From contig JAHCIA010000001.1 in the NCBI GenBank assembly GCA_026129465.1, positions 877,964 to 941,963 on the forward strand: a DNA stretch of 64,000 bases. The letters are read 5' to 3'. Numbering within the stretch: position 1 is the stretch's first letter; every line of letters starts with the position of its first letter. The notes under the pieces were generated by a model. That model saw only the letters and a program-made list of their open reading frames with translations. It did not search any database and had not been told where the DNA came from. This DNA is from Flavobacteriales bacterium (lineage in GTDB: Bacteria; Bacteroidota; Bacteroidia; Flavobacteriales_F; PHOS-HE28). Of the stretch, positions 1 through 12,452 are shown piece after piece. The position numbers and the translations under genes were made by a program.

Positions 1-1
1 C

Positions 2-529
2 GAGCTGCGCACGCTGGAGCGCTTCACCCACCGCACCTTCCAGCCGGTGGACCTGCGCCATTTCATCCGCGCGCTACGGCATCTGTACCAGCACCATGGC
101 GGGCTGGAGGGCGCTTTCTTGCTGGATGGCCAGGTGGGCGAAATGGCCGCCGCGATCGCCCGCTTCAAGGCACGCTTCTTCGCGATCCAACACCAGCCGC
201 GCACACGCAAGCACGTGGCCGATCCCGCCAAAGGCAGCAACGCCAAGCGCATCAACATGTTCCTGCGCTGGATGGTGCGCCCCGCCGACCGCGGCGTGGA
301 CCTGGGCCTGTGGAAGCGCATCGCACCCGCCGACCTGATGATGCCCCTGGATGTGCACACCGGTCGCATGGGCCGCGCACTGGGGCTGCTCACCCGAAAA
401 CAGGACGACTGGAAGGCCGTGGAGGAACTCACCGCCGCGCTGCGCGAATTCGATGCGCTGGACCCCGTGAAGTATGATATCGCGCTGTTCGGGTTGGGTG
501 TGGAGGGGAAGGAAACCCGATCTTCTTGA
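2..529 (+). CDS. TIGR02757 (DUF2400) family protein, 3' part
   Basis: The open frame enters from the left edge, so the N-terminus lies outside the window; a GTG at 47 is internal. The visible 175 residues match the conserved core of the TIGR02757/DUF2400 family as I know it: a FIRALRHLY segment, then PRTRKHVADP, KGSNAKRINMFLRWMVR, GLWKRI, PLDVHTGRMGRALGLL, RKQDDWKAVEELT and a terminal DPVKYDIALFGLG. Members are about 250 residues, so roughly the first third is missing. The biochemical role of the family is unknown to me. The gene converges on the minus-strand tracrRNA, whose hairpin at 550-582 could also terminate this transcript. Confidence 0.85.
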   Translation, partial: ELRTLERFTHRTFQPVDLRHFIRALRHLYQHHGGLEGAFLLDGQVGEMAAAIARFKARFFAIQHQPRTRKHVADPAKGSNAKRINMFLRWMVRPADRGVDLGLWKRIAPADLMMPLDVHTGRMGRALGLLTRKQDDWKAVEELTAALREFDALDPVKYDIALFGLGVEGKETRSS

Positions 530-547
530 CCTGAGCACATATGCTTG

Positions 548-643
548 AAAAAGACCGCGACCCGCCGTAAGGCGGGCCGCGGTGTTGGCCTGTTAGCCCA
601 GTTCTCACAACGGAATGATCCTTATTGTGAAAGACTTCAGGTC
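548..643 (-). ncRNA. tracrRNA of the type II-C CRISPR-Cas locus
   Basis: Read on the minus strand, the RNA would start with GACCUGAAGUCUUUCACAAU (643 down to 624). This is complementary to the first 21 positions of the CRISPR repeat in crRNA sense, with two G-U wobbles and a one-base bulge. It continues AAGGAUCAUUCCGUUGUGAG (623-604), which resembles the AAUAAGG..AUUCCGUUGUGA segment I recall from other type II-C tracrRNAs. It ends in a strong hairpin and a U run at 548-552. Size is about 95 nt. A promoter-like pair (648-676) places the start at the first anti-repeat base. The expected role is to pair with crRNA, allow RNase III trimming and load Cas9. The orientation is opposite to cas9 and the same as the proposed crRNA transcription. 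Confidence 0.88.
550..582 (-). terminator. Intrinsic terminator of the tracrRNA
   Basis: A 12-bp stem (571-582 with 555-566) closes on the four-base loop TTAC and is followed on the minus strand by TCTTTTTC. In minus-strand RNA the one irregular pair is G-U. In plus-strand RNA it would be an A-C mismatch, which favours the minus strand as the functional reading. It is also the 3' hairpin of the tracrRNA. Confidence 0.85.
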
Positions 644-647
644 GCCA

Positions 648-676
648 CGAATGTAAGCGCAGAAAGCTATTTTCAA
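648..676 (-). promoter_or_regulatory. Predicted tracrRNA promoter (TTG / 18 bp / TACATTCG)
   Basis: On the minus strand, TTG (676-674) and TACATTCG (655-648) are 18 bp apart. This fits the Bacteroidota pattern TTG - about 19 bp - TAnnTTTG, with the TTCG ending seen before several genes here. A start 5-7 bases downstream falls at 641-643, the first base of the anti-repeat. Inferred from pattern and position only. Confidence 0.55.
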
Positions 677-736
677 GCCCGCCCGCATAGACAAATCAAC
701 TGTGAGAGGTCGGACTCACCCATCAATCATACCAAT

Positions 737-3700
737 ATGGACAAGCAAGAGAAGATCATTGGACTGGATATCGGAAGCAACAGCGTAGGCTGGGCTGTGG
801 TGACCATGCGGGGCAATGACCTCGTGGAACTCCATGGCATGGGGTCACGGATCATCCCCAGCAACGACGACACCAAGAACTTCGAGCAAGGCAAGGCGCA
901 AACACGCAATGCCGACCGCAGGCGCTACCGCAGCATGCGACGCAACAACCACCGGTACAAGCTGAGGCGAGCCAACTTGGTGAAGGTGCTGAAGCTCATC
1001 GGTGCTTGGCCGGAGAAGCTCGGTGAACCCTTGACCAAGGATTCGCCCATGCTCACGGCGCTGGAGTTGTACGGTCTCCGTGCGCAAGCGGTGAAAGATG
1101 CTATCGGGCTGCCTGAACTCGGCCGTGTTCTCTACCACATGAATCAGCGACGCGGTTACAAGGATATCGGCGACCTGATGGACGAGCTTCAGGGCAAGGA
1201 GAAGGATGCCGAGGAGAAGGACAGCAACACGAACATCGAGGTGAAGCAAGTCACTATCGCCTCGTGTGAAGTGGAAGATGCCAAGGGCAAGAAGGAGATC
1301 CTGCGCATCCGGCTCGCGGATGGAACGGAGGGCACCACCATGCAGTCCAGCTTCAAAGAGATCGTTGGGCAGGAACTGTACATCCAGATCAAGACCAAGC
1401 GAACGGGCAAAGGCGACACCATCACCTTCTCCCGCGTGAGCGTGAGTGATTGGCTGAAGAACAAGGACGCCCTGGACGAGAAGCTGGCGGAGAGCGGCAA
1501 GCACCCCGGACAATACTTCTATCAGGAATTGCTCGACAACCCGGGCCAACCTCCGCGCTTCCGTGAGCGTGTGGTGCTGCGCGAACGCTACAAGGATGAG
1601 TTCGATGCCATTTGGGCCAGGCAAGCCAAGGAACACGCCGTGCTTCGGTATCCTGCCGTGCGCGAAACGGTCCTGGCGGCGCTCATCCCGAACAACCACG
1701 GGCTACGGCAGCAATGGGCCGACAAGGACCTGGGCACCATCGTGCGCGACTACGTCATCTACTACCAGCGCCCGCTGAAGTCGCAGGCAAAGAGCAAAGG
1801 CCAATGCCGCTTCGAGCGCAAACCTGTTGCGGCGGTGAGCTCTCCGGGCTACCAGCTCTTCCGCATCTGGCAGCAAGTGAACAACATCGTGCTGCGCGAC
1901 AAGTACATGCGTGAACGGCCGCTCACTAGCGACGAGCGCCTGGCCGTGGTGTGCCTTACGCTGGAGCAGGAAAAGGTGAGCGAAGCGGGTATCCTCAAAG
2001 CCATCAAAGTCAAGAAGAGCGAGTGGGAGACCAGTTTGCGTGCTGACCTTCCCGGCCATGTCACCCTCACCAAGCTCCGTAAGATCCTTGGTGAACATGC
2101 CTGCTGGCCACAGATCGAAGCCGAGGCACAGCAACTCAGCGGCATGGAGGGCACCCTGCTCTTCAAACTCTGGCATGCGCTGTACGCCGAGCCCAAACAA
2201 GAGCACCGGAAGACAACCGTGCGGAAACTGCTCGTGCTGACCGATGAACAAGCTGATGCACTTTCCAAGGTCCGCTTCGAGCGCAAGCACGGCGCGGTCT
2301 CGGCGCGGGCTGCGGCACGCATCACCCAGCTCATGGCATGCGGTGCGGCTTGGAGCCATGAGCAATGGCCACCGAGCTTGCAGCGCAGCGTGCAGCGCGT
2401 GATCGACAACCGGGGCGACGACAGTATGAAGGAGGAGATGCGCCGCGCTGTTGCGCACCTCACTTCCATCGAGCAATTCACCGGCCTGCAATACTGGGTG
2501 GCGGCCACCTTGGCCTACGGCGACCACCGCGCCATCTCAGGCAAACCCATCGAGAGGCCCGAGTGGATCAAGAGCATGCCCCGCGGATTCCTGCGCAACC
2601 CCACCGTGGAGCAAGTGGTGAATGAGGCGCTCATGGTGGTGCGCGACATCTGGAAGGAATACGGCAAGCCCGACAGCTTCCGGGTGGAGCTTGCGCGCTC
2701 ACTGCGGCAGAGCATCGATGAACGCCAACGTACCGACAAGCGCAATCGTGACCGCGAACGCGACCGCAAGAAGGTGGTGGACCGCCTCATGAAGGAGCAC
2801 AACAAAGCGCGGCCCACAGGAAAGGACATCGAGCGCTTCGAACTCTGGGAACAGCAGAAACACCAGTGCGTCTACAGCGGCCGCACCATCGAGGCCAGCC
2901 AGCTTTTCAGCCGCGAGGCCGATGTGGACCACATCATCCCGCGCAGCCTTTTCTACGACGATAGCCTGCAGAACAAGGTGCTCTGCCTGCGCACCGAGAA
3001 CGCCGGCGATGGAGCGAAGAACAATCAGCTCGCCGCCCCCTACATGAAAGGCAAGGGCGGTTCGGCCTATGAGGATTATGTGAAACGCATGAACGACTGG
3101 AACCTCCCTTTAGGGAAGCGGAAGTTCCTGCTGGCCGAAGAAGTGCCGGACAGTTTCATCAACCGGCAGATGAACGAGACCCGCTACATCGGCACCGAGC
3201 TGCGCAAGCTCCTGGAGCGCATAGCGCCGGTGAACACCACCGTGGGCCAGGTGACCGATGCCCTCAAGAACGAATGGGGCCTCACCACCGTGTACAAGGA
3301 AGTGCTGCTGCCTCGCTTCCGCAGGCTCGAAGGCATCGTGAAGCGCGACCTGATCCAGGAGATCCACCGCACCAATGGCGCGAAGCACGTGGACTACAAG
3401 ATCGAGGGCTACGACAAGCGCATCGACCACCGGCACCACGCGCTGGACGCCCTGGTGGTGGCGCTCACCCGACAGAAGTACATCCAGAAGATCGCGCAGT
3501 TGAAGCAGCGAGGCGAAGCCCTCACCCAAGAAGAAGCCGCTGGTAAGCTCACCTGGTGGCCCCTGCCCCACCGCGATCTGCGGACCATCGTCAAGCAGCA
3601 GTTGGAGCGCACCATCCCCAGCATCAAGAACCGTCAACGCCTGCTCACCAAAGCCAGCAATCGAACCGCTTACTACGACGCGGCCAATGGCAGGGTGATG

Positions 3701-4795
3701 GCCGGTAAGGACGGGCGCCCCCAGAAGATGAATGAGGGCCAACGCCTGCTCGCCGTTCGAGGCAAGCTGCATGAAGAGCAGCCCATGGGCGAGGTGCGCA
3801 GGCAGGAGCGCATGCCCATCGAGAAAGTGATGAAGCGCTTGGTGGAGATCAGCGGGAAGGAAGGTCCCCTCCATGAATTGCGCCCCATCGCCAAAGAAGA
3901 CCCCGCTTACCGGAATCGTTTCCTTTCACATGAGCGCGAACGTGCCTGGCTGGAAGAGCGCCTGGCCAAGTTCAACGGCGATACCAAGGCGGCGCTGAAA
4001 GACTGGAAGAAAGCACCACCGATGAACGGCAAGGCCGAGCCGGTGATGGCGCTCACCGTACTCGTGCCGTACTACGTGAGTACGCAACCCGTCGGTGGCC
4101 TTTCACCCAAGATGATGACCAAGGTGCTGGATACGCGCTTCGGCCGTGAGTTGGAGGACCATGTGAAGGCCTTTGATAACGACTATGAGAAGGCACTGAC
4201 GGACGACGGGCTGAATGCGCTGAACGACGGCCGAAACGTGCCAGTGAGGAGGATCCGTATCAAGAAGCACGATACCCCCATCTGGGATACTGACGGGCAC
4301 CGCAACATGCTGCGGCCCGATTCGCCGAATGAACGCATGCACATCAAGATGGGCGACAATTACGCCCTTGCGGTGCATGTACACGAGGAGAACGGCGAGC
4401 GCTCGTTCGAGATCATCTCCTTCTACGATGCCGTACAGCGGCAAAGGCAAGGCATGGAACTGGTTGATACAAAGCCGGGCCACCGCACCTTCCTACTGCG
4501 GAAGAAGGACCCGGTGTATGTGCCAAGGCCGGGAGAGCAGATCAGGGATATTCCCTGGGATGACCAGCAAGCGATTTGGGACAGGCTGTACATCACTATC
4601 CAGTTTTCCGGCAATCGCCACTACTTCAACCAATGTTCGTTGAGTTCGATTGCTCCTGGTTTCGAATCCGTCGAGCTTGGCTCGCAGAATTCAACGGAGT
4701 TCGTTGATCGCGACGAACCACGAACGAAAATTTCACCTGTTGCGATTCCTATCCGTGTCGATCGACTAGGCAGGGTAAGTCCCCTTTGGCCATGA
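737..4795 (+). CDS. cas9: Cas9 endonuclease, type II-C
   Basis: RNA-guided double-strand DNA nuclease of 1352 residues, within the size I expect for Bacteroidota II-C Cas9. RuvC-I is IIGLDIGSNSVGWAV with catalytic Asp11. The arginine-rich bridge helix follows (RNADRRRYRSMRRNNHRYKL). RuvC-II is FRVELAR (Glu651). The HNH domain has CVYSGRTIE and DVDHIIPRS (His732). RuvC-III is HRHHALDALVVAL (Asp904). All nuclease residues are present. The remainder to the C-terminus is expected to hold the PAM-interacting region. The frame is open back to 545, but the extension overlaps the tracrRNA and lacks Cas9 character, and RuvC-I starts right after the ATG at 737. cas1 overlaps its stop (ATGA). The absence of csn2 and cas4 makes the locus II-C. 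Confidence 0.97.
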   Translation: MDKQEKIIGLDIGSNSVGWAVVTMRGNDLVELHGMGSRIIPSNDDTKNFEQGKAQTRNADRRRYRSMRRNNHRYKLRRANLVKVLKLIGAWPEKLGEPLTKDSPMLTALELYGLRAQAVKDAIGLPELGRVLYHMNQRRGYKDIGDLMDELQGKEKDAEEKDSNTNIEVKQVTIASCEVEDAKGKKEILRIRLADGTEGTTMQSSFKEIVGQELYIQIKTKRTGKGDTITFSRVSVSDWLKNKDALDEKLAESGKHPGQYFYQELLDNPGQPPRFRERVVLRERYKDEFDAIWARQAKEHAVLRYPAVRETVLAALIPNNHGLRQQWADKDLGTIVRDYVIYYQRPLKSQAKSKGQCRFERKPVAAVSSPGYQLFRIWQQVNNIVLRDKYMRERPLTSDERLAVVCLTLEQEKVSEAGILKAIKVKKSEWETSLRADLPGHVTLTKLRKILGEHACWPQIEAEAQQLSGMEGTLLFKLWHALYAEPKQEHRKTTVRKLLVLTDEQADALSKVRFERKHGAVSARAAARITQLMACGAAWSHEQWPPSLQRSVQRVIDNRGDDSMKEEMRRAVAHLTSIEQFTGLQYWVAATLAYGDHRAISGKPIERPEWIKSMPRGFLRNPTVEQVVNEALMVVRDIWKEYGKPDSFRVELARSLRQSIDERQRTDKRNRDRERDRKKVVDRLMKEHNKARPTGKDIERFELWEQQKHQCVYSGRTIEASQLFSREADVDHIIPRSLFYDDSLQNKVLCLRTENAGDGAKNNQLAAPYMKGKGGSAYEDYVKRMNDWNLPLGKRKFLLAEEVPDSFINRQMNETRYIGTELRKLLERIAPVNTTVGQVTDALKNEWGLTTVYKEVLLPRFRRLEGIVKRDLIQEIHRTNGAKHVDYKIEGYDKRIDHRHHALDALVVALTRQKYIQKIAQLKQRGEALTQEEAAGKLTWWPLPHRDLRTIVKQQLERTIPSIKNRQRLLTKASNRTAYYDAANGRVMAGKDGRPQKMNEGQRLLAVRGKLHEEQPMGEVRRQERMPIEKVMKRLVEISGKEGPLHELRPIAKEDPAYRNRFLSHERERAWLEERLAKFNGDTKAALKDWKKAPPMNGKAEPVMALTVLVPYYVSTQPVGGLSPKMMTKVLDTRFGRELEDHVKAFDNDYEKALTDDGLNALNDGRNVPVRRIRIKKHDTPIWDTDGHRNMLRPDSPNERMHIKMGDNYALAVHVHEENGERSFEIISFYDAVQRQRQGMELVDTKPGHRTFLLRKKDPVYVPRPGEQIRDIPWDDQQAIWDRLYITIQFSGNRHYFNQCSLSSIAPGFESVELGSQNSTEFVDRDEPRTKISPVAIPIRVDRLGRVSPLWP

Positions 4796-5697
4796 TCAAG
4801 CGCACCATCCACATCGGCTCGCCCTGCACGCTACGCAGGCGCGAGCAGCAATTGGTGGTGCAATACCCCAAGGAATTGGGCATGGCCGATAAGACCGTGC
4901 CCATTGAAGACCTGGGTGTGGTGATCCTGGACCACGAGCGCGTGGTGGTGACCCAGATGCTGCTGGCCGCGCTGCTGGCCAACAACGTGGCCGTGATCAC
5001 CTGCAACGAGCAGCACATGCCCACGGGCATGCTCCTGAACCTCGATGGCCACACCACGCAGACGGAGATCTTCCGCGCGCAGCTGGAGGCCAGCGAACCC
5101 CTGCGCAAGAACCTGTGGATGCAATGCGTGCAGGCCAAGCTCCGCAACCAAGGCGCCGTGCTCGACCGCATCGGCATCGGCGGCGATGCGCTGCGCGAAT
5201 TCGCCCGCAACGTGCGCAGCGGCGATCCCGACAATTTGGAGGCGCGCGGAGCGGCGGTCTATTGGAAGAGCGTGTTCCCCGCCGCCATGAACTTCGTGCG
5301 GCACCGCCATGGCGAGCCGCCCAACAACCTGCTCAACTACGGCTACGCCATCCTGCGCGCCGTGGTGGCCCGTAGCCTGGTGGGCAGCGGACTCTTGCCC
5401 ACCTATGGCATCCACCACCGCAGCAAGTACAACGCCTATTGCCTGGCCGACGACATCATGGAGCCTTACCGCCCCTGGGTGGATGAGGCCGTGCTGGAAC
5501 TGCTGGTGAAGGAGCGCATCGACCCCAAGGAGGTGACCACTGAGATCAAGGGCCACTTGCTGAAACTGCCCACCAAGGATGTGCTCCTCGACGGCCAGCG
5601 CAGCCCGCTGCTGGTGGCCGTGCAGCGCACCACGGCTGCTTTGGCACGGTGCTTCCAAGAGGGGGAACGCAAAGGGCTTTGGCCCGAATTCACCTGA
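4792..5697 (+). CDS. cas1: CRISPR-associated endonuclease Cas1 (type II)
   Basis: Spacer-integration nuclease, 301 residues, acting with Cas2. It opens MIKRTIHIGSPCTLRRREQQ, as in type II Cas1 proteins. The C-terminal helical domain carries YWKSVFP, GIHHRSKYNAYCLADDIMEPYR and VDEAVLELL, which hold the conserved His and acidic metal ligands of the family. Its ATG overlaps the cas9 TGA (ATGA), implying translational coupling; a TTG two codons upstream is possible but less likely. It is followed by cas2 after 9 bp. Complete and apparently functional. Confidence 0.96.
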   Translation: MIKRTIHIGSPCTLRRREQQLVVQYPKELGMADKTVPIEDLGVVILDHERVVVTQMLLAALLANNVAVITCNEQHMPTGMLLNLDGHTTQTEIFRAQLEASEPLRKNLWMQCVQAKLRNQGAVLDRIGIGGDALREFARNVRSGDPDNLEARGAAVYWKSVFPAAMNFVRHRHGEPPNNLLNYGYAILRAVVARSLVGSGLLPTYGIHHRSKYNAYCLADDIMEPYRPWVDEAVLELLVKERIDPKEVTTEIKGHLLKLPTKDVLLDGQRSPLLVAVQRTTAALARCFQEGERKGLWPEFT

Positions 5698-5706
5698 ACG
5701 CGCCCC

Positions 5707-6039
5707 ATGGGCCGCCTCGATGAGTACCGCATCATGTGGGTCTTCGTCTTCTTCGACCTGCCCACCGAGAGCCGCCAGAACCGGCGCGATCATGCACGCT
5801 TCCGAAAGAACTTGAAAGAAGATGGCTTCACCATGATGCAGTACAGCATCTACACCCGGCACTGCAACAGCAGCGAGAACGCGGAGGTCCACATGAAGCG
5901 CGTAAAACGCCTGTTGCCGCCCGAGGGCGAGGTGATCGTGTTCACCCTCACCGACAAGCAGTTCGGCATGATGGAGTTCTTCAGGGGCCAGAAACCCAGT
6001 GAACGGCCGGATACCCCACAGCAACTCGAGCTCTTCTGA
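5707..6039 (+). CDS. cas2: CRISPR-associated Cas2
   Basis: Small partner of Cas1 in the spacer-integration complex, 110 residues. The N-terminal beta strand MWVFVFFDLPTES ends in the conserved Asp, followed by RRDHARFRKNLKEDGF and MMQYSIYTRHC, the usual ferredoxin-like layout of type II Cas2. The C-terminal tail (FFRGQKPSE onward) is polar. It is the last gene of the cas9-cas1-cas2 operon and sits before a bidirectional hairpin terminator and the array. Confidence 0.95.
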   Translation: MGRLDEYRIMWVFVFFDLPTESRQNRRDHARFRKNLKEDGFTMMQYSIYTRHCNSSENAEVHMKRVKRLLPPEGEVIVFTLTDKQFGMMEFFRGQKPSERPDTPQQLELF

Positions 6040-6043
6040 ACGA

Positions 6044-6075
6044 AAAGGCCCGTCACCTTTCGGCAACGGGCCTTT
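6044..6075. terminator. Bidirectional terminator between cas2 and the array
   Basis: Perfect 10-bp stem AAAGGCCCGT / ACGGGCCTTT with a 12-base loop. A/T runs lie on both sides: CGAAAA on the left, and a TTTTT run at 6085-6089 on the right. It can end the cas operon reading right and crRNA transcripts leaving the array reading left. Confidence 0.7.
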
Positions 6076-6144
6076 CGCGCTGTGTTTTTCGAATCGTCCG
6101 CTTGCGCCTTACCACCTCAGCCTCAGCTTGTTCTTGACACCTGT
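6076..6144. promoter_or_regulatory. Probable CRISPR leader
   Basis: Sixty-nine bases between the cas2 terminator and the first repeat, with no gene. This end is the likely site of new spacer insertion, because the repeats here are perfect while the opposite end carries the degenerate repeat. No promoter reading into the array on the plus strand was recognised. The role is inferred from position. Confidence 0.45.
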
Positions 6145-7923
6145 GATGTCACAGCTCGTCAAAGATCTTGACCTGAAAGCCTTTCACAACGCTGAACATG
6201 GGCGGCAGCGGCGGGTACTGGATGTCACAGCTCGTCAAAGATCTTGACCTGAAAGCCTTTCACAACGGCATCGACCACCGTGAAGGTGGCCATGGTGATG
6301 TCACAGCTCGTCAAAGATCTTGACCTGAAAGCCTTTCACAACGGGTGGCACCGGTGGCGACCTGGCCACCCTGATGTCACAGCTCGTCAAAGATCTTGAC
6401 CTGAAAGCCTTTCACAACAGTGGGCGCATTGGGGTCCACCCAGCACGGGATGTCACAGCTCGTCAAAGATCTTGACCTGAAAGCCTTTCACAACCTGCGG
6501 CAACGGTTCGCCGTTGGTGGCATCGATGTCACAGCTCGTCAAAGATCTTGACCTGAAAGCCTTTCACAACGCCGGGCTGCAATGCGGTGAAGACGGCTGT
6601 GATGTCACAGCTCGTCAAAGATCTTGACCTGAAAGCCTTTCACAACCAAGGCGCTGGCCATGGAGAAGTAGGTGGTGATGTCACAGCTCGTCAAAGATCT
6701 TGACCTGAAAGCCTTTCACAACACGGACCTGAACTACTCGAATGTGGTGACCGATGTCACAGCTCGTCAAAGATCTTGACCTGAAAGCCTTTCACAACGT
6801 GGCTGTTGCTGCTGGTGTCATTGGCCTTGATGTCACAGCTCGTCAAAGATCTTGACCTGAAAGCCTTTCACAACATACGAAAGGCATGTTTCAGGTGCTC
6901 TTCGATGTCACAGCTCGTCAAAGATCTTGACCTGAAAGCCTTTCACAACCGGGCGGCTGGACGGCCATACGCCAAGGCTGATGTCACAGCTCGTCAAAGA
7001 TCTTGACCTGAAAGCCTTTCACAACAATGCCATGATCACCGCCGTAGCGATCGGAGATGTCACAGCTCGTCAAAGATCTTGACCTGAAAGCCTTTCACAA
7101 CGGAGGCGAGCGTTGTGAAATTCGCCCCAAGGATGTCACAGCTCGTCAAAGATCTTGACCTGAAAGCCTTTCACAACCGCCACGCTGAAGGCTTGGCAGG
7201 GAGTTCGATGTCACAGCTCGTCAAAGATCTTGACCTGAAAGCCTTTCACAACCACATGCCCCACCTCTTTGCATTCGCTCGCGATGTCACAGCTCGTCAA
7301 AGATCTTGACCTGAAAGCCTTTCACAACGGGCCAAGACCACGCATATGTCCAGTTCCAGATGTCACAGCTCGTCAAAGATCTTGACCTGAAAGCCTTTCA
7401 CAACGGCCATGCAGAGCCACGGCCACAACCTGCGATGTCACAGCTCGTCAAAGATCTTGACCTGAAAGCCTTTCACAACATAAAATAGGCATGTGTCTCT
7501 GAAAATAGAGATGTCACAGCTCGTCAAAGATCTTGACCTGAAAGCCTTTCACAACGACTCGGGCGAGCTGGTGATCCGCAACGGAGATGTCACAGCTCGT
7601 CAAAGATCTTGACCTGAAAGCCTTTCACAACGGGAAGCACGGTGCTCGCCTTCCCTGCGTGATGTCACAGCTCGTCAAAGATCTTGACCTGAAAGCCTTT
7701 CACAACTGGCGATCAGCGTGGCGGGCGCGCGGCGTGGATGTCACAGCTCGTCAAAGATCTTGACCTGAAAGCCTTTCACAACCTCTTCCTCTGTCTTGGT
7801 GCGGTCCCTGACGATGTCACAGCTCGTCAAAGATCTTGACCTGAAAGCCTTTCACAACCGAAGGCGTCCGTGGGATGTGTCACCACGTGATGTCACAGCT
7901 CGTCAAAGATCTTGACCTGAAAG
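6145..7923 (-). CRISPR. Type II-C CRISPR array, 23 full repeats plus one truncated, 23 spacers
   Basis: The repeat is 46 bp. Written in crRNA sense (minus strand) it runs GTTGTGAAAGGCTTTCAGGT, CAAGATCTTTGACGAGCTGT, GACATC. Full repeats start at 6145, then every 75-76 bp to 7813, and I saw no base difference among them. Spacers are 30 bp except four of 29 bp (6875-6903, 7178-7206, 7405-7433, 7632-7660). The last unit (7889-7923) keeps only 35 bp and is cut at an inverted repeat. The orientation is set by the GTTGTG end and by complementarity to the tracrRNA. Long 46-47 bp repeats of this kind are known in Bacteroidota II-C loci. Spacer 18 (7480-7509) is AT-rich, unlike the others; no spacer is duplicated. 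Confidence 0.98.
7828..7857 (-). promoter_or_regulatory. In-repeat promoter (example in repeat 23; the same in every full repeat)
   Basis: Within each repeat on the minus strand, TTG at repeat positions 2-4 and GATCTTTG at positions 24-31 are separated by 19 bp. This matches the Bacteroidota arrangement TTG - 19 bp - TAnnTTTG with one mismatch (G for T). A transcript would start near repeat positions 37-39 and then read the adjoining spacer. In-repeat promoters are established for type II-C arrays of Neisseria meningitidis; here the assignment rests on motif and spacing alone. Confidence 0.5.
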
Positions 7924-7924
7924 T

Positions 7925-7995
7925 TGGCTTGCCCGCCAAAGTACCCTTTCGCCTTCCCGGAACTGCCGCCCGCGGGTACTTTGGCGGGCAAGCCA
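7925..7995. repeat. Perfect 22-bp inverted repeat abutting the truncated CRISPR repeat
   Basis: The arms are 7925-7946 and 7974-7995, the left beginning TGGCTTGCCCGCCAAAGTAC; they are exact complements around a 27-base loop. The element begins two bases after the point where the terminal CRISPR repeat stops matching, so it probably arrived as a unit or defines a deletion end. It has no U run, so it is a poor classical terminator. REP-like or other small palindromic mobile elements are plausible identities. No coding capacity was seen from 7924 to 8046. Confidence 0.85.
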
Positions 7996-8025
7996 GCCTC
8001 CGGCGGTGGGCCATAAGGTGTGTGC

Positions 8026-8044
8026 CACCGCGCTGCGCGCGGAT
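8026..8044. repeat. 19-bp hairpin repeat, left copy
   Basis: CACCGCGCTGCGCGCGGAT contains the stem CCGCGC / GCGCGG. A copy with one difference lies at 8482-8500, in the same orientation, so the two flank the MNT/HEPN fragment. Confidence 0.7.
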
Positions 8045-8046
8045 CG

Positions 8047-8118
8047 TTACAGGGCTCCGATCTCGGCGATCGCCACCAGGATGTCGTCAGACCAGTACTT
8101 GGTGCTTCGATCCGTCAT
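8047..8118 (-). pseudogene. Truncated HEPN-type (DUF86-like) toxin, N-terminal stub
   Basis: A 23-codon frame starting at ATG 8118 and ending in TAA (8049-8047) encodes MTDRSTKYWSDDILVAIAEI plus three residues. The YWSDDILVAIAEI segment resembles the beginning of HEPN proteins of the DUF86 kind (for example Y-L-x-D-I-L-E-A-I-x-x-I). The frame overlaps the 3' end of the MNT gene, which is the usual arrangement of MNT-HEPN toxin-antitoxin pairs. Normal HEPN partners are about 110-140 residues, so most of the protein, including the R-x4-6-H active site, is missing. The stub ends next to the hairpin repeat at 8026-8044. Confidence 0.6.
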
Positions 8119-8413
8119 AGATCAGCTCCTTGGTGCGTTCCACCTCGGCGCGCAGGTAGGGATTGCGCAGGGAACTCTCGGTCAGAAGGTCCACCGGGCG
8201 CTGGAACAGGTCCTCCAAGCCGTTCCAGATGTTGATGAGCATGCGGCCTGCCTCCTCATCGGGCGCATCCACCTCCACCAGCACGTCCACATCGCTTTCC
8301 GGGCCGAAGGGTCCGCGCACGCTGCTGCCGAAGGCATAGAGGCGGCTTACCTGGTTGGCGGCCAACAAGGCGCCTAAGGCGGCACGGTCGCGGGCAACAA
8401 GGTCCTTGAGCAT
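8087..8413 (-). CDS. MNT-type nucleotidyltransferase (antitoxin of an MNT-HEPN pair)
   Basis: A 108-residue minimal nucleotidyltransferase. The signature GSSVRGPFGPESDVDVLVEV begins at residue 29: Gly-Ser, then Asp41 and Asp43 as the metal-binding pair. Proteins of this class typically neutralise HEPN RNase toxins by adding AMP or by binding. Its usual partner, normally overlapping the 3' end, is reduced to a 23-codon stub here, so the protein is now an orphan antitoxin. An exact TAAGTTTG -7 box ends five bases before the ATG, suggesting a leaderless mRNA. It sits between the CRISPR array and unrelated housekeeping genes. Confidence 0.85.
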   Translation of the reverse strand: MLKDLVARDRAALGALLAANQVSRLYAFGSSVRGPFGPESDVDVLVEVDAPDEEAGRMLINIWNGLEDLFQRPVDLLTESSLRNPYLRAEVERTKELIYDGSKHQVLV

Positions 8414-8417
8414 GATC

Positions 8418-8425
8418 CAAACTTA
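8418..8425 (-). promoter_or_regulatory. -7 box TAAGTTTG of the MNT gene
   Basis: Exact match to TAnnTTTG on the minus strand, only four bases from the ATG at 8413. Transcription would begin at or next to the start codon. No TTG at the expected upstream spacing was seen. Confidence 0.5.
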
Positions 8426-8481
8426 CGGTGAAGGTCAGACGGCGGCATGTAGCCCAATAGTTGACTACACCGCAAGAACAG

Positions 8482-8500
8482 CACCGCGCTTCGCGCGGAT
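8482..8500. repeat. 19-bp hairpin repeat, right copy
   Basis: CACCGCGCTTCGCGCGGAT differs from 8026-8044 by one base, in the loop, so the CCGCGC / GCGCGG stem is kept. It lies upstream of the MNT gene. Confidence 0.7.
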
Positions 8501-8541
8501 AGGCACCGGTCTCCGCGCCGCGTCATGTAGTTTCGCACCCG

Positions 8542-10581
8542 ATGTCCTTTCTGCACCCGGCCTTCCTGTGGGCGCTCGCTGCCCTGGCCATCCCGGTGCT
8601 CATCCACCTTTTCCAGCTTCGTCGCTTCAAGCGGATCGACTTCACGCACACGCGCTTCCTGGCCGAGGTGACGAAGCAGACCCGCGCGCGCCGCAAGGTG
8701 CAGCACTGGCTCACCCTGTTGGCCCGCATGCTGGCGCTGGCCTTCCTGGTGTTCGCTTTCGCACAGCCCTACATCCCCGGCGAGGACAGCAGCGCCACGG
8801 CGGGCGATCGCGCCATCTCGCTTTACATCGACGACAGCTGGAGCATGGACGGCCAGAACGCGCAGGGCCGCCTGCTGGACCAGGCCCGCCGTGGGGCGCA
8901 GGAGGCCATCATGGCACATGCCGCCACCGATCGCTTCCAGGTGATCACCGGCCGCTTCGAGGGCCGCGAGCAGATGCTGCTGGGACTGGACGATGCCATG
9001 GAGGCGGCTTCCCGCGTGGATGTGGGGCCTTTCGCGCGGCCCCTCTCCCAGGTGATGACCAGGCAGCGTGAAGCGCTGGCCACCAGCGAGGCCGAGACGC
9101 GACGCGCCTTCCTCTTCACCGATCTGCAGCGCGGCATCACCGACGTGGAGCACTGGACCGACGACCCGGCCATCCCCACGGTGATCGTGCCCCTGCCACC
9201 CACCCGGCCGGACAACCTCAGCATCGACTCGGTGTGGTTCGAGACCCCCGTACGCCGCGCCTGGCAAGGCGAGGCCTTGCGTGTCCGCATTCGCAACCAC
9301 GGCGCGCAGGACCTGGTGAACGTGCCCCTGCGCCTGTCGCTGGCCGGGCAACAGCGCGCCATCGCCACCTTCAGCGTGGAAGCTTCGGCCACCGTGGATA
9401 CCGTGCTGCGCTTTTCGGGCGACGGCCCGGGCCTGGTGCACGGCGAAGTGTCCATCAGCGACCAGCCCGTGACCTTCGACGACCGCATGCACATCAGCTA
9501 CCGGGTGACGGACCGCCTGCGCGTGGCCGTGGTGAGCGGTGGCGATCAGGCGGGCGATCGCGCACTGGCGGCGGTCTTCGAAGGCGACAGCACGCATGTG
9601 TTCACCACCGTGGCGCACCGCATGGTGGACCTCGCCGCCTTGCAGAACCAGGACCTGGTGGTGCTGCAGGCCGTGCCGGATGTGCCCGGCGGTCTCCTCG
9701 AAGCGCTCGCCGCCTTCGTGGAGCAAGGGGGCAGCCTGGCGGTGTTCCCGCCGTCGCAAGGCGATCCCGCCGGCCATGCGGGGCTCTTCGGCCGCTTCGG
9801 TGCGGCACCGCCCACCAGGCTCGATACCGGCACCGTTCGCGTGGACCGGATCGACCTGGAGCAGCCCTTCTACCGCGATGTGTTCCAGACCATGCCCCGC
9901 AACGTGGATCTGCCCGTGGCCCGCGAACGATGGTCGTTGACACCCAAGCCGGGCAGCGACATCCTGTTGCGCGCGCAGGATGGCCGGCCCTACCTGTCGC
10001 GCACCCCGATAGGCTTGGGAGCGGTCTACCTCAGTGCCGTGCCGCTCGCCGAACGCGCGGGCAATCTGGTGCGCCATGCCCTCTTCGCCACCTCGCTGCT
10101 GCGCATGGCCGAACTGGCCAGACCCATGGGCGCCCTGTACCACAGCATAGGTGAGGAGGTACTGGTCCCTATGGAAGGCCTGGACCTGCCCGGCGAACGG
10201 CCGCCCACGGTGTCCGGTCCCGAGGGCACGGCCTTCACCCCTGAAGTGCGCCGCACGCCCGGCGGCACCGCGCTGGCCTTCCATGACCAGGACATGCGGC
10301 CGGGGCCTTACACGGTCATGGACGGTGGGGACACGCTCGCCGTCTTCGCGCTGAACCTCTCGCGCCGAGAAAGCGACCTGGCCACGCTGGATCCCGCCGA
10401 CCTGCGCGCCCTGCTTACCGAAAAGGGACTGACCACCTTCAGTGTGCTGGAGACCGGCACGGGCGATCTTTCGCTACGTTTGACCGAACTCGGCCAGGCA
10501 CCGAAACTGTGGAAGTGGTGCATCCTGCTCGCCCTGTTGTTCCTGGCCGCTGAAGTCTTCCTCTTGCGCGCATCGCGATGA
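8542..10581 (+). CDS. BatA-domain / von Willebrand A membrane protein
   Basis: A 679-residue membrane protein of the Bacteroidota BatA type. The N-terminus (MSFLHPAFLWALAALAIPVL) is the double-membrane-segment domain found in aerotolerance-operon proteins, followed by a second hydrophobic segment near residues 55-75. A vWA domain begins about residue 90, with the MIDAS-like DDSWSM at the end of a beta strand. The long middle part is beta-rich and periplasmic. The C-terminus has a last membrane helix (WCILLALLFLAAEVFLL). The role is unknown; homologues are expected to form envelope complexes. The stop overlaps the next gene's ATG (ATGA at 10578). A TAGTTTCG box lies at 8528-8535, seven bases before the start. 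Confidence 0.85.
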   Translation: MSFLHPAFLWALAALAIPVLIHLFQLRRFKRIDFTHTRFLAEVTKQTRARRKVQHWLTLLARMLALAFLVFAFAQPYIPGEDSSATAGDRAISLYIDDSWSMDGQNAQGRLLDQARRGAQEAIMAHAATDRFQVITGRFEGREQMLLGLDDAMEAASRVDVGPFARPLSQVMTRQREALATSEAETRRAFLFTDLQRGITDVEHWTDDPAIPTVIVPLPPTRPDNLSIDSVWFETPVRRAWQGEALRVRIRNHGAQDLVNVPLRLSLAGQQRAIATFSVEASATVDTVLRFSGDGPGLVHGEVSISDQPVTFDDRMHISYRVTDRLRVAVVSGGDQAGDRALAAVFEGDSTHVFTTVAHRMVDLAALQNQDLVVLQAVPDVPGGLLEALAAFVEQGGSLAVFPPSQGDPAGHAGLFGRFGAAPPTRLDTGTVRVDRIDLEQPFYRDVFQTMPRNVDLPVARERWSLTPKPGSDILLRAQDGRPYLSRTPIGLGAVYLSAVPLAERAGNLVRHALFATSLLRMAELARPMGALYHSIGEEVLVPMEGLDLPGERPPTVSGPEGTAFTPEVRRTPGGTALAFHDQDMRPGPYTVMDGGDTLAVFALNLSRRESDLATLDPADLRALLTEKGLTTFSVLETGTGDLSLRLTELGQAPKLWKWCILLALLFLAAEVFLLRASR

Positions 10582-11876
10582 ACGACCTGATCATCCGACA
10601 AGCCCGGGTGGTGGATCCCGGAGGACCGCATCATGATGCGGAGACCGATATTCTGGTGAAGGACGGCCGCGTGGCGCGCATCGGGAACCGGATCCCGGCG
10701 GGTGATGCGCAGGAGGTGAAACAGCCGGGCCTGCATGTGAGTCCCGGCTGGGTGGACCTGCGTGCCCATTTCCGCGACCCCGGTGAGGAGTGGAAGCAAG
10801 GTGTGGCCAATGGCCTGGACGCCGCCGCCGCCGGTGGCTTCACCGCCGTGGCCGTGCTGCCCAGCACCGAGCCCCCCACGGATGGACGATCGGGTATCGA
10901 GTATCTGCTGCGCAAGGGCCAGGGCCATGCGGTACGCCTGCTCCCCATCGGCGCCATCACCAAGGGCCTGAAGGGCAAGGAACTCGCGGAACTGCACGAT
11001 CAGCGTACCGCAGGCGCCGTAGCCTTCAGCGACGACCAGTACCCGCTGCGCAACAGCCGCCTGATGCTGCTGGCCCTGCAGTACGCCAACGGGCTGCCCG
11101 GCCAGACTGGACCGGTGATGGTCTATCCCAGCGATGCGGACCTGTGCGCGCGTGGCCAGATGCACGAAGGCCACATGAACGCCCGCCTGGGGCTGCGCGG
11201 CCTGCCGGCCATGGCGGAAGCCATCCAACTGGCGCGCGACCTGGCCCTGCTGGAATACGCCGGTGGCCACCTGCACGCCGCCACCATCTCCACCGCCGAG
11301 GCCGTGGAACTGGTGCGGCAGGCGAAGGCGCGCAAGCTGCGGGTCACCGCCAGCGTGGCCGCCTACAATCTGCTGCTGGACGACGGCTGCCTGCGCGGCT
11401 TCGAGTCATGCTACAAGGTGATGCCACCACTGCGCGACGCACACCACATCGAGGCGCTGCGCGAAGGTGTGAAGGACGGCACCATCGACGCCATCGTGAG
11501 CGACCACCGCCCGGAGGACCGCGAGCACAAGGTGGTGGAGTTCGGCCAGGCGGCCTTCGGCATCATCGGGCTGGACAGCTGCTTCGCCGTGGCGAACTCC
11601 GCGCTCAAAGGCCGCATGTCGTTGCGCCGCTTGATCGAGCGCTTCACACACGGGCCACGCGCCGTGCTGGGCCTGCCCCGCGTGCATGTGGAGGAAGGCG
11701 CATCGGAGCTGACACTCTTCGATCCCGAGGTCGCCCACGTGCTGCACGAGGAGGACCTCACCAGCCGCTCGCACAACACGCCCTTCATCGGGCAACCTTT
11801 CACCGGCCGCCCCGTGGGCATCGTGTCCGGTGGCCAGGTGGTGCTTCGGCAGGCCGCCACCGCGGCCACGCGTTGA
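10578..11876 (+). CDS. Dihydroorotase homologue, probably non-catalytic
   Basis: A 432-residue amidohydrolase of the class I dihydroorotase family. The fold markers are intact: AAAAGGFTAVAVLPSTEP, PIGAITKGLKGKELAEL, AVAFSDD, GLPAMAEAIQLARD and DGTIDAIVSDHRPED. Key metal ligands are altered. The HxH motif reads DLRAHFRDPG (Arg62 for the first His). The segment normally giving HxxHVST reads HLHAATIST, and the TPHHL histidine is lost (SVAAYNLL). The protein is therefore likely a scaffold or regulatory homologue, like the inactive dihydroorotases that support aspartate transcarbamoylase in some bacteria, and a second active enzyme should exist elsewhere. It is translationally coupled to the BatA-like gene. 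Confidence 0.85.
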   Translation: MNDLIIRQARVVDPGGPHHDAETDILVKDGRVARIGNRIPAGDAQEVKQPGLHVSPGWVDLRAHFRDPGEEWKQGVANGLDAAAAGGFTAVAVLPSTEPPTDGRSGIEYLLRKGQGHAVRLLPIGAITKGLKGKELAELHDQRTAGAVAFSDDQYPLRNSRLMLLALQYANGLPGQTGPVMVYPSDADLCARGQMHEGHMNARLGLRGLPAMAEAIQLARDLALLEYAGGHLHAATISTAEAVELVRQAKARKLRVTASVAAYNLLLDDGCLRGFESCYKVMPPLRDAHHIEALREGVKDGTIDAIVSDHRPEDREHKVVEFGQAAFGIIGLDSCFAVANSALKGRMSLRRLIERFTHGPRAVLGLPRVHVEEGASELTLFDPEVAHVLHEEDLTSRSHNTPFIGQPFTGRPVGIVSGGQVVLRQAATAATR

Positions 11877-11882
11877 TCCGGC

Positions 11883-12452
11883 TCAGCGTTTCGCGCTCTC
11901 TTCCGCCGCCCGCTCGGCCTCCTTGGCCTTGAAGCGTTCGATCAGCTCGGCGTCCGTGTAGTCGAGGTTCTCCAGCATCACGCGCGCATCGGCCGCGAAG
12001 GCATGGTCGGGAAAGAGGTTGATCACCTCCTCGTAGGCGCGTTTGGCCTCGCCCTTCTGTCCCAGGTCGCTGTCGATGGTGAAGGCCTTCATGTAATACA
12101 CGTCGGGCAGCCGCTCCCAGTAGGAGTAGTCCTGGATGATGCGGTCGTACAGCACGATGCTCTGGTTGGCGTCATACAGCACTTTGGCCACGCTGGCGGC
12201 ACGGAAGAGGTATTCGGGCGCCATGCTGTCGGTGGGGAAGGCGGCCACATAGGCCTTGTACACATCGAACAGGCCCTGAGCGCCACGCTGGTCGAAATTC
12301 ATCTTGGTGAACAACGAATCCTCCATGCCGGCGATGCGTTCGCGCATCACATCGGCCTTCGCGTCGCCGCCCTTCTCCTTGGTGCCGCAACCGGCGATGA
12401 GGAGCAGAGCGAACGGGAGGGATGTGTACCAGTGCTTCATGGTCATGGTCAT
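11883..12452 (-). CDS. Tetratricopeptide-type lipoprotein
   Basis: A 189-residue envelope protein. A short signal peptide ends in the lipobox LLIAGC (Cys near residue 22). The rest is helical, with pairs resembling TPR units (ERLPDVYYMKAFTIDSDLGQ, KRAYEEVINLFPDHAFAADA), a BamD-like pattern but much shorter than BamD. The function is unknown. It is the last gene of a minus-strand group with def; its ATG overlaps the def stop. A later ATG at 12440 (MKHWYTS) would give a tidier signal peptide. It ends 6 bp from the convergent dihydroorotase homologue. Confidence 0.75.
   Translation of the reverse strand: MTMTMKHWYTSLPFALLLIAGCGTKEKGGDAKADVMRERIAGMEDSLFTKMNFDQRGAQGLFDVYKAYVAAFPTDSMAPEYLFRAASVAKVLYDANQSIVLYDRIIQDYSYWERLPDVYYMKAFTIDSDLGQKGEAKRAYEEVINLFPDHAFAADARVMLENLDYTDAELIERFKAKEAERAAEESAKR

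Follow-up and report, generated by a model that had tools for sequence, protein, structure and literature searches.

A probable Bacteroidota-type -7 promoter box in the repeats of a Flavobacteriales type II-C CRISPR array

Each repeat of a type II-C CRISPR array from a Flavobacteriales bacterium probably carries, on the minus strand, a core promoter for the housekeeping sigma factor of the Bacteroidota (sigma ABfr), with a TAnnTTTG-type -7 box, GATCTTTG, at repeat positions 24-31. The array lies in the window, by which we mean the whole 64,000-nucleotide stretch of DNA that was analyzed. The sequences of more than 100 related arrays say that the box in the window repeat is not likely to be an accident, and from sequence we infer the firing of the box, the start point and the processing of the transcripts.

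By profile matches, the window locus is a complete type II-C CRISPR-Cas system, with cas9, cas1, cas2, the array and a predicted tracrRNA. The plus-strand cas9 gene (737-4795) encodes 1352 amino acids and matches TIGR01865 (426 bits), PF18541 and PF13395; on the same strand are a type II cas1 (4792-5697; TIGR03639, 287 bits) and cas2 (5707-6039; TIGR01573, 77 bits), and all three products score over the cut-offs. No csn2 or cas4 was found, and the interval from cas9 to the array has no space for an extra cas gene. In a Cas1 comparison, the closest relative with a name is an uncultured Flavobacteriales bacterium, and the host's order amounts to one genus, with 45 genomes, in the genome collection used. 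Adjoining the array is a minus-strand gene for an MntA-like nucleotidyltransferase (8087-8413; the NF047752 score is under the cut-off).

A tracrRNA of about 95 nt is predicted on the minus strand upstream of cas9, at about 549-647 with ends that we infer, and it contains a 13-bp stem (583-554) followed by a T run; an Rfam search over positions 1-12000 gave no match. Its anti-repeat (624-643, minus strand) pairs with repeat positions 1-21 in a cofold of -33.6 kcal/mol, and positions 22-46 are unpaired in the predicted duplex. Because the pairing is with the minus-strand repeat, the crRNA strand is taken to be the minus strand. The predicted tracrRNA promoter has the -7 box TACATTCG at 648-655 on the minus strand and a TTG 18 bp away at 674-676.

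The array (6145-7858) consists of 23 identical 46-bp repeats and 22 spacers of 29-30 bp. The minus-strand repeat unit, GTTGTGAAAGGCTTTCAGGTCAAGATCTTTGACGAGCTGTGACATC, has TTG at positions 2-4 and, after exactly 19 bp, GATCTTTG at 24-31, an arrangement that had been described in the sequence-only reading and that is exact in all 23 full repeats. On the forward strand the box lies at +15 to +22 from the repeat start in every copy, which places it at 6160-6167 in the repeat at 6145 (with its TTG at 6187-6189, within the anti-repeat duplex) and at 7828-7835 in the last full repeat. The same reading had counted one mismatch to TAnnTTTG, and indeed five of the six defined letters agree, the first T being replaced by G. 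The interval that it gave, 6145-7858, does span the 23 full repeats but misses the true end of the array, a 24th, distal terminal repeat at 7889-7923. This truncated copy keeps minus-strand positions 12-46, including the -7 box (7904-7911), and lacks positions 1-11, and with them the TTG and a large part of the anti-repeat half. At the other end, the gap between cas2 and the array (6040-6144) forms the leader side, which holds a hairpin at about 6044-6075 and would be on the 3' side with respect to crRNA transcription. That this cas2 side is the acquisition end is suggested by how the array is laid out, by the truncation of its far-end repeat and by published work on II-C systems (PMC8092290). 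The same leader-side layout is found in three loci of the same genus (L101-L103), and in same-genus arrays the leader-side gap contains a hairpin that has, in the crRNA sense, a T run. The leader side of L101-L103 also has a conserved inverted repeat, approximately GAACCGC-N9-GCGGTTTC, which is not seen in the leader of the window, and in the distal flank of L103, upstream of 1293, two copies of a type I-like repeat sequence, GTTTCAATCCGCGCCC, lie immediately past the II-C array.

Taken alone, the match in the window repeat is suggestive, with a chance of about 2%. When positions 18-46 are shuffled, the single-repeat chance is 0.023 for five of six letters or better at a spacing of 18-21 bp, 0.007 at exactly 19 bp and 0.012 for any strand and any TTG; the 23 identical repeats count as one observation, and their use as 23 independent ones was rejected. 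A scan for E. coli-type promoters gave one site in the array (7457-7486, plus strand), within the number expected from shuffles. The 2% figure and the missing T of TA leave some room for a functionless chance match in the window repeat, even if other lineages use the box. We regard such a coincidence as quite unlikely: the box is unchanged in the three same-genus arrays L101-L103, another repeat type of the genus (L099, L100) has a five-of-six box, TTCCTTTG, at 18 bp, and GATCTTTG recurs 19 bp from TTG in other families (L067, L185, L215, L236).

The wider comparison drew on Bacteroidota genomes, from which arrays neighboring cas9 or cas1 were taken. The rule, formed on a first set, called for five of six letters of TAnnTTTG or better, 18-21 bp after TTG at positions 2-4, in repeats of at least 44 nt; a second set, collected later with a different tool, was scored by the unchanged rule. 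The box was found in 28 of 43 clusters of the first set, against 3.4 for the null (maximum 12 in 2000 shuffles), with 12 exact boxes against 0.28, and in 17 of 37 clusters of the second, against 2.8, with 15 exact boxes against 0.27; kinship among the sequences makes the shuffles overstate the significance of these counts, which clustering at 80-85% lessens and does not remove. Of 111 distinct long repeats, 38 have an exact box at the proper spacing on the crRNA strand, and none has one on the opposite strand. Two other measures were set aside. Type I arrays of the phylum were uninformative as a control, since the spaced motif does not fit into their repeats, which are mostly 29-33 nt; substitution rates among related repeats (0.195 in the box, 0.390 in the following sequence) are blurred by pairs with shifted boxes.

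A question raised by the sequence-only reading was whether the two elements are conserved among related repeats above what pairing with the anti-repeat requires, and the answer differs between them. Across 87 long repeats, repeat and anti-repeat agree at 0.9-1.0 through most of positions 1-17; from around position 27 onward the agreement is down to about 0.3-0.5, near the chance level when G-U pairs are tolerated. The -7 box thus lies at the edge of, or outside, the duplex and by these alignments is conserved beyond pairing needs. TTG at positions 2-4 is near-invariant because it lies inside the duplex, and it therefore provides no independent promoter evidence. It is also rare in tRNA promoters of the host: among the tRNA genes of the window genome that have a good box, 1 of 22 has a TTG at the right distance. 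The informative element is accordingly the -7 box.

That TAnnTTTG serves as a promoter box in this genome was read from 30 tRNA loci, of which 16 have it exactly and several more have TAnnTTCG. The genome is GC-rich, and the -33 element seems weak or absent from its promoters, as has likewise been noted for F. johnsoniae (PMC7366714). The tRNA genes of Sphingobacterium olei and of one Chitinophagaceae genome show the box as well. Ahead of tracrRNA genes, a box of five of six letters or better is present in 100 of 131 loci, most commonly 12 bp before the anti-repeat, and TTG prefers a distance of 18-20 bp from it. The tracrRNA boxes of the window genus keep the first T of TA and the repeat box does not; at one tRNA gene of the window genome (L350), the promoter place is occupied by GATCTTCG, so the box may tolerate a G as its first letter.

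The repeat box is not universal, being shifted or missing in several lineages and lacking the first T of TA in the window genus. Chitinophagaceae repeats have TAnnTTAG, 22-23 bp after TTG; Sphingobacteriaceae repeats have TTCTTTGA without the TA, Ignavibacteria repeats have TTTCTTTG or GTTCTTTG, and neither group has a good box at this place. The recurrence of TCTTTGA without a preceding TA in these last two groups, and the near-palindrome GTCAAGATCTTTGAC that surrounds the TCTTTG stretch in the window genus, could mean that the stretch is kept for some other reason, such as repeat recognition by Cas1-Cas2 at spacer insertion or crRNA processing, and resembles a promoter by chance. This explanation is very unlikely in our judgment. 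It does not account for a match to the six letters that define the promoter box of the phylum, at promoter spacing and on one strand only, nor for the same box ahead of tracrRNA and tRNA genes in the same genomes, and the palindrome was not seen outside the window genus among the repeats compared.

Part of the exceptions fit a second register, with TTG at positions 9-11 and the box at 31-32, an exploratory assignment that was set after seeing the data. Similarly, among 20 clusters of repeats 36 nt long, 9 have [TG]AnnTT at the end and a TTG at 9-11 exactly 19 bp ahead, against a null of 0.5, in an analysis that was again exploratory and post hoc. A broader proposal, which we offer tentatively and would not yet favor, is that the II-C repeats of Bacteroidota have become promoters for the sigma factor of the phylum itself, in two or more layouts. 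In repeats of 44-48 bp, the 3' half outside the anti-repeat would exist to carry TAnnTTTG 18-21 bp after TTG; in 36-bp repeats, TTG at 9-11 would be followed after 19 bp by [TG]AnnTT at the junction with the spacer, the place that TACAAT occupies in Neisseria. If this were true, promoter needs, beside Cas9 or Cas1-Cas2, would set the length and sequence of the phylum's repeats. A Neisseria-like repeat (GTTGTAGCTCCC...GGCTACAAT) was met at L179:5033-6208, on a contig binned with a Bacteroidota-class genome that also has a second cas1, of the usual kind; contamination or transfer may account for it.

The sequence-only reading had also supposed that transcripts would arise without a leader promoter. 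A TTG-TAnnTTYG promoter within 250 bp upstream was found in 0 of 63 arrays, against a null of 0.9, a small difference in a test of sequence only; more distantly, the window has an exact -7 box, TAAGTTTG, at 8418-8425 on the minus strand, ahead of the nucleotidyltransferase gene, which could read toward the array. One long precursor might accordingly be made from an outside promoter such as this one, which is upstream on the correct strand, and the repeat box, off-consensus at its first T in the window genus, would then be a relic or too weak. We consider this unlikely in view of the 0 of 63 comparable arrays and of the inverted repeat, with arms of about 25 bp, that stands between the nucleotidyltransferase gene and the array. 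An outside promoter would also leave the conserved box of other lineages without explanation, and RNA-seq of F. columnare, with eight reads, was read as starts within the array (PMC8092290). The inverted repeat (7924-7998) abuts the truncated repeat at the far end; the idea that it belongs to a mobile family was rejected, as it is single-copy.

The far ends of related arrays give some supporting evidence. About half of the long-repeat arrays have a cas2-distal repeat that has lost sequence from its anti-repeat half and mostly keeps its 3' half; the leader-side repeat is degenerate in 0 of 117. With correction for the detection limit, the whole box is kept in 24 of 30 cut terminal repeats against 18 expected (P 0.016); the uncorrected pattern looked stronger, partly as a result of that limit, and the corrected result is taken as supporting only. 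The pattern fits a first repeat that no longer needs to pair with tracrRNA but still has to start the first spacer, and neutral erosion from outside explains part of it.

If every repeat has such a promoter, transcription by RNA polymerase would begin about 5-7 nt past the box, near repeat positions 36-38, and the transcript would cross the following spacer into the next repeat, heading toward cas2 and the leader. The tracrRNA would then pair with positions 1-21 of that next repeat, and RNase III would cut. Since transcription would run toward cas2 and the leader, each new spacer would arrive with its own promoter. The suggestion of one short precursor per spacer is a guess; no terminator was found inside the array, so the transcripts probably overlap, and RNase III cleavage of such overlapping transcripts is equally possible. 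If true, the proposal would explain how Bacteroidota II-C arrays can do without a leader promoter even though spacers are acquired at what is the distal, 3' end of the transcript. It would also account for the length of many of their repeats, about 10 bp above the usual 36. Its prediction, a start at repeat positions 36-38, is exact and cheap to check against RNA-seq from cultured species. It also carries a warning: where the host has other sigma factors, these arrays may fail for want of crRNA transcription.

Like the window locus, the arrays of Neisseria meningitidis and Campylobacter jejuni are accompanied by cas9, cas1 and cas2 only and have a promoter motif in each repeat; the window array appears to be of this kind, with a crRNA-strand motif in every repeat that is kept in relatives and matches at five of six letters in the window itself. 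In Neisseria and Campylobacter the box is a sigma-70 -10 element (TACAAT, TAAAAT) at the 3' end of a 36-bp repeat, whereas the TAnnTTTG-type box of the window is followed by 15 more bp of its 46-bp repeat, and the start is therefore predicted inside the repeat. Individual crRNA starts from a promoter per repeat are known for both of these II-C systems (Dugar 2013, PMC3656092). Within the Bacteroidota, Riemerella anatipestifer CRISPR1 resembles the window in being a II-C locus with its array downstream of cas2 and an anti-repeat upstream of cas9 (PMC5006608). Its authors found no repeat promoters, the leader-scan tool cited being a general neural-network predictor (PMC5006608), and our reading contradicts the published statement that such repeats hold no promoter.

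The sequence-only reading had offered these repeats as a parallel solution, an idea that is not new, as promoters within the repeats of Flavobacterium II-C arrays had been put forward in 2021 and again in 2023 (PMC8092290, PMC10309648). For Flavobacterium columnare, a repeat-encoded promoter was proposed and RNA-seq, with eight reads, indicated transcription toward the leader (Hoikkala 2021, PMC8092290); the repeats there are of 36 bp, and only TTG was named, with no -7 box. For this 36-nt class, the better fit is the exploratory one of TTG at 9-11, 19 bp and [TG]AnnTT at the repeat end. The Fp2Cas9 array of Flavobacterium psychrophilum has 46-bp repeats, a TTG promoter element was proposed in each, and the array is transcribed, with no mapping of starts (PMC10309648); TAnnTTTG was assigned there only to the cas9 promoter and not to the repeat. 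A TAnnTTTG box named in repeats was not found in the literature searched, which included few subscription journals. The repeat-promoter idea is thus itself known, and what is new here is the -7 box in the repeats and its phylum-wide conservation.
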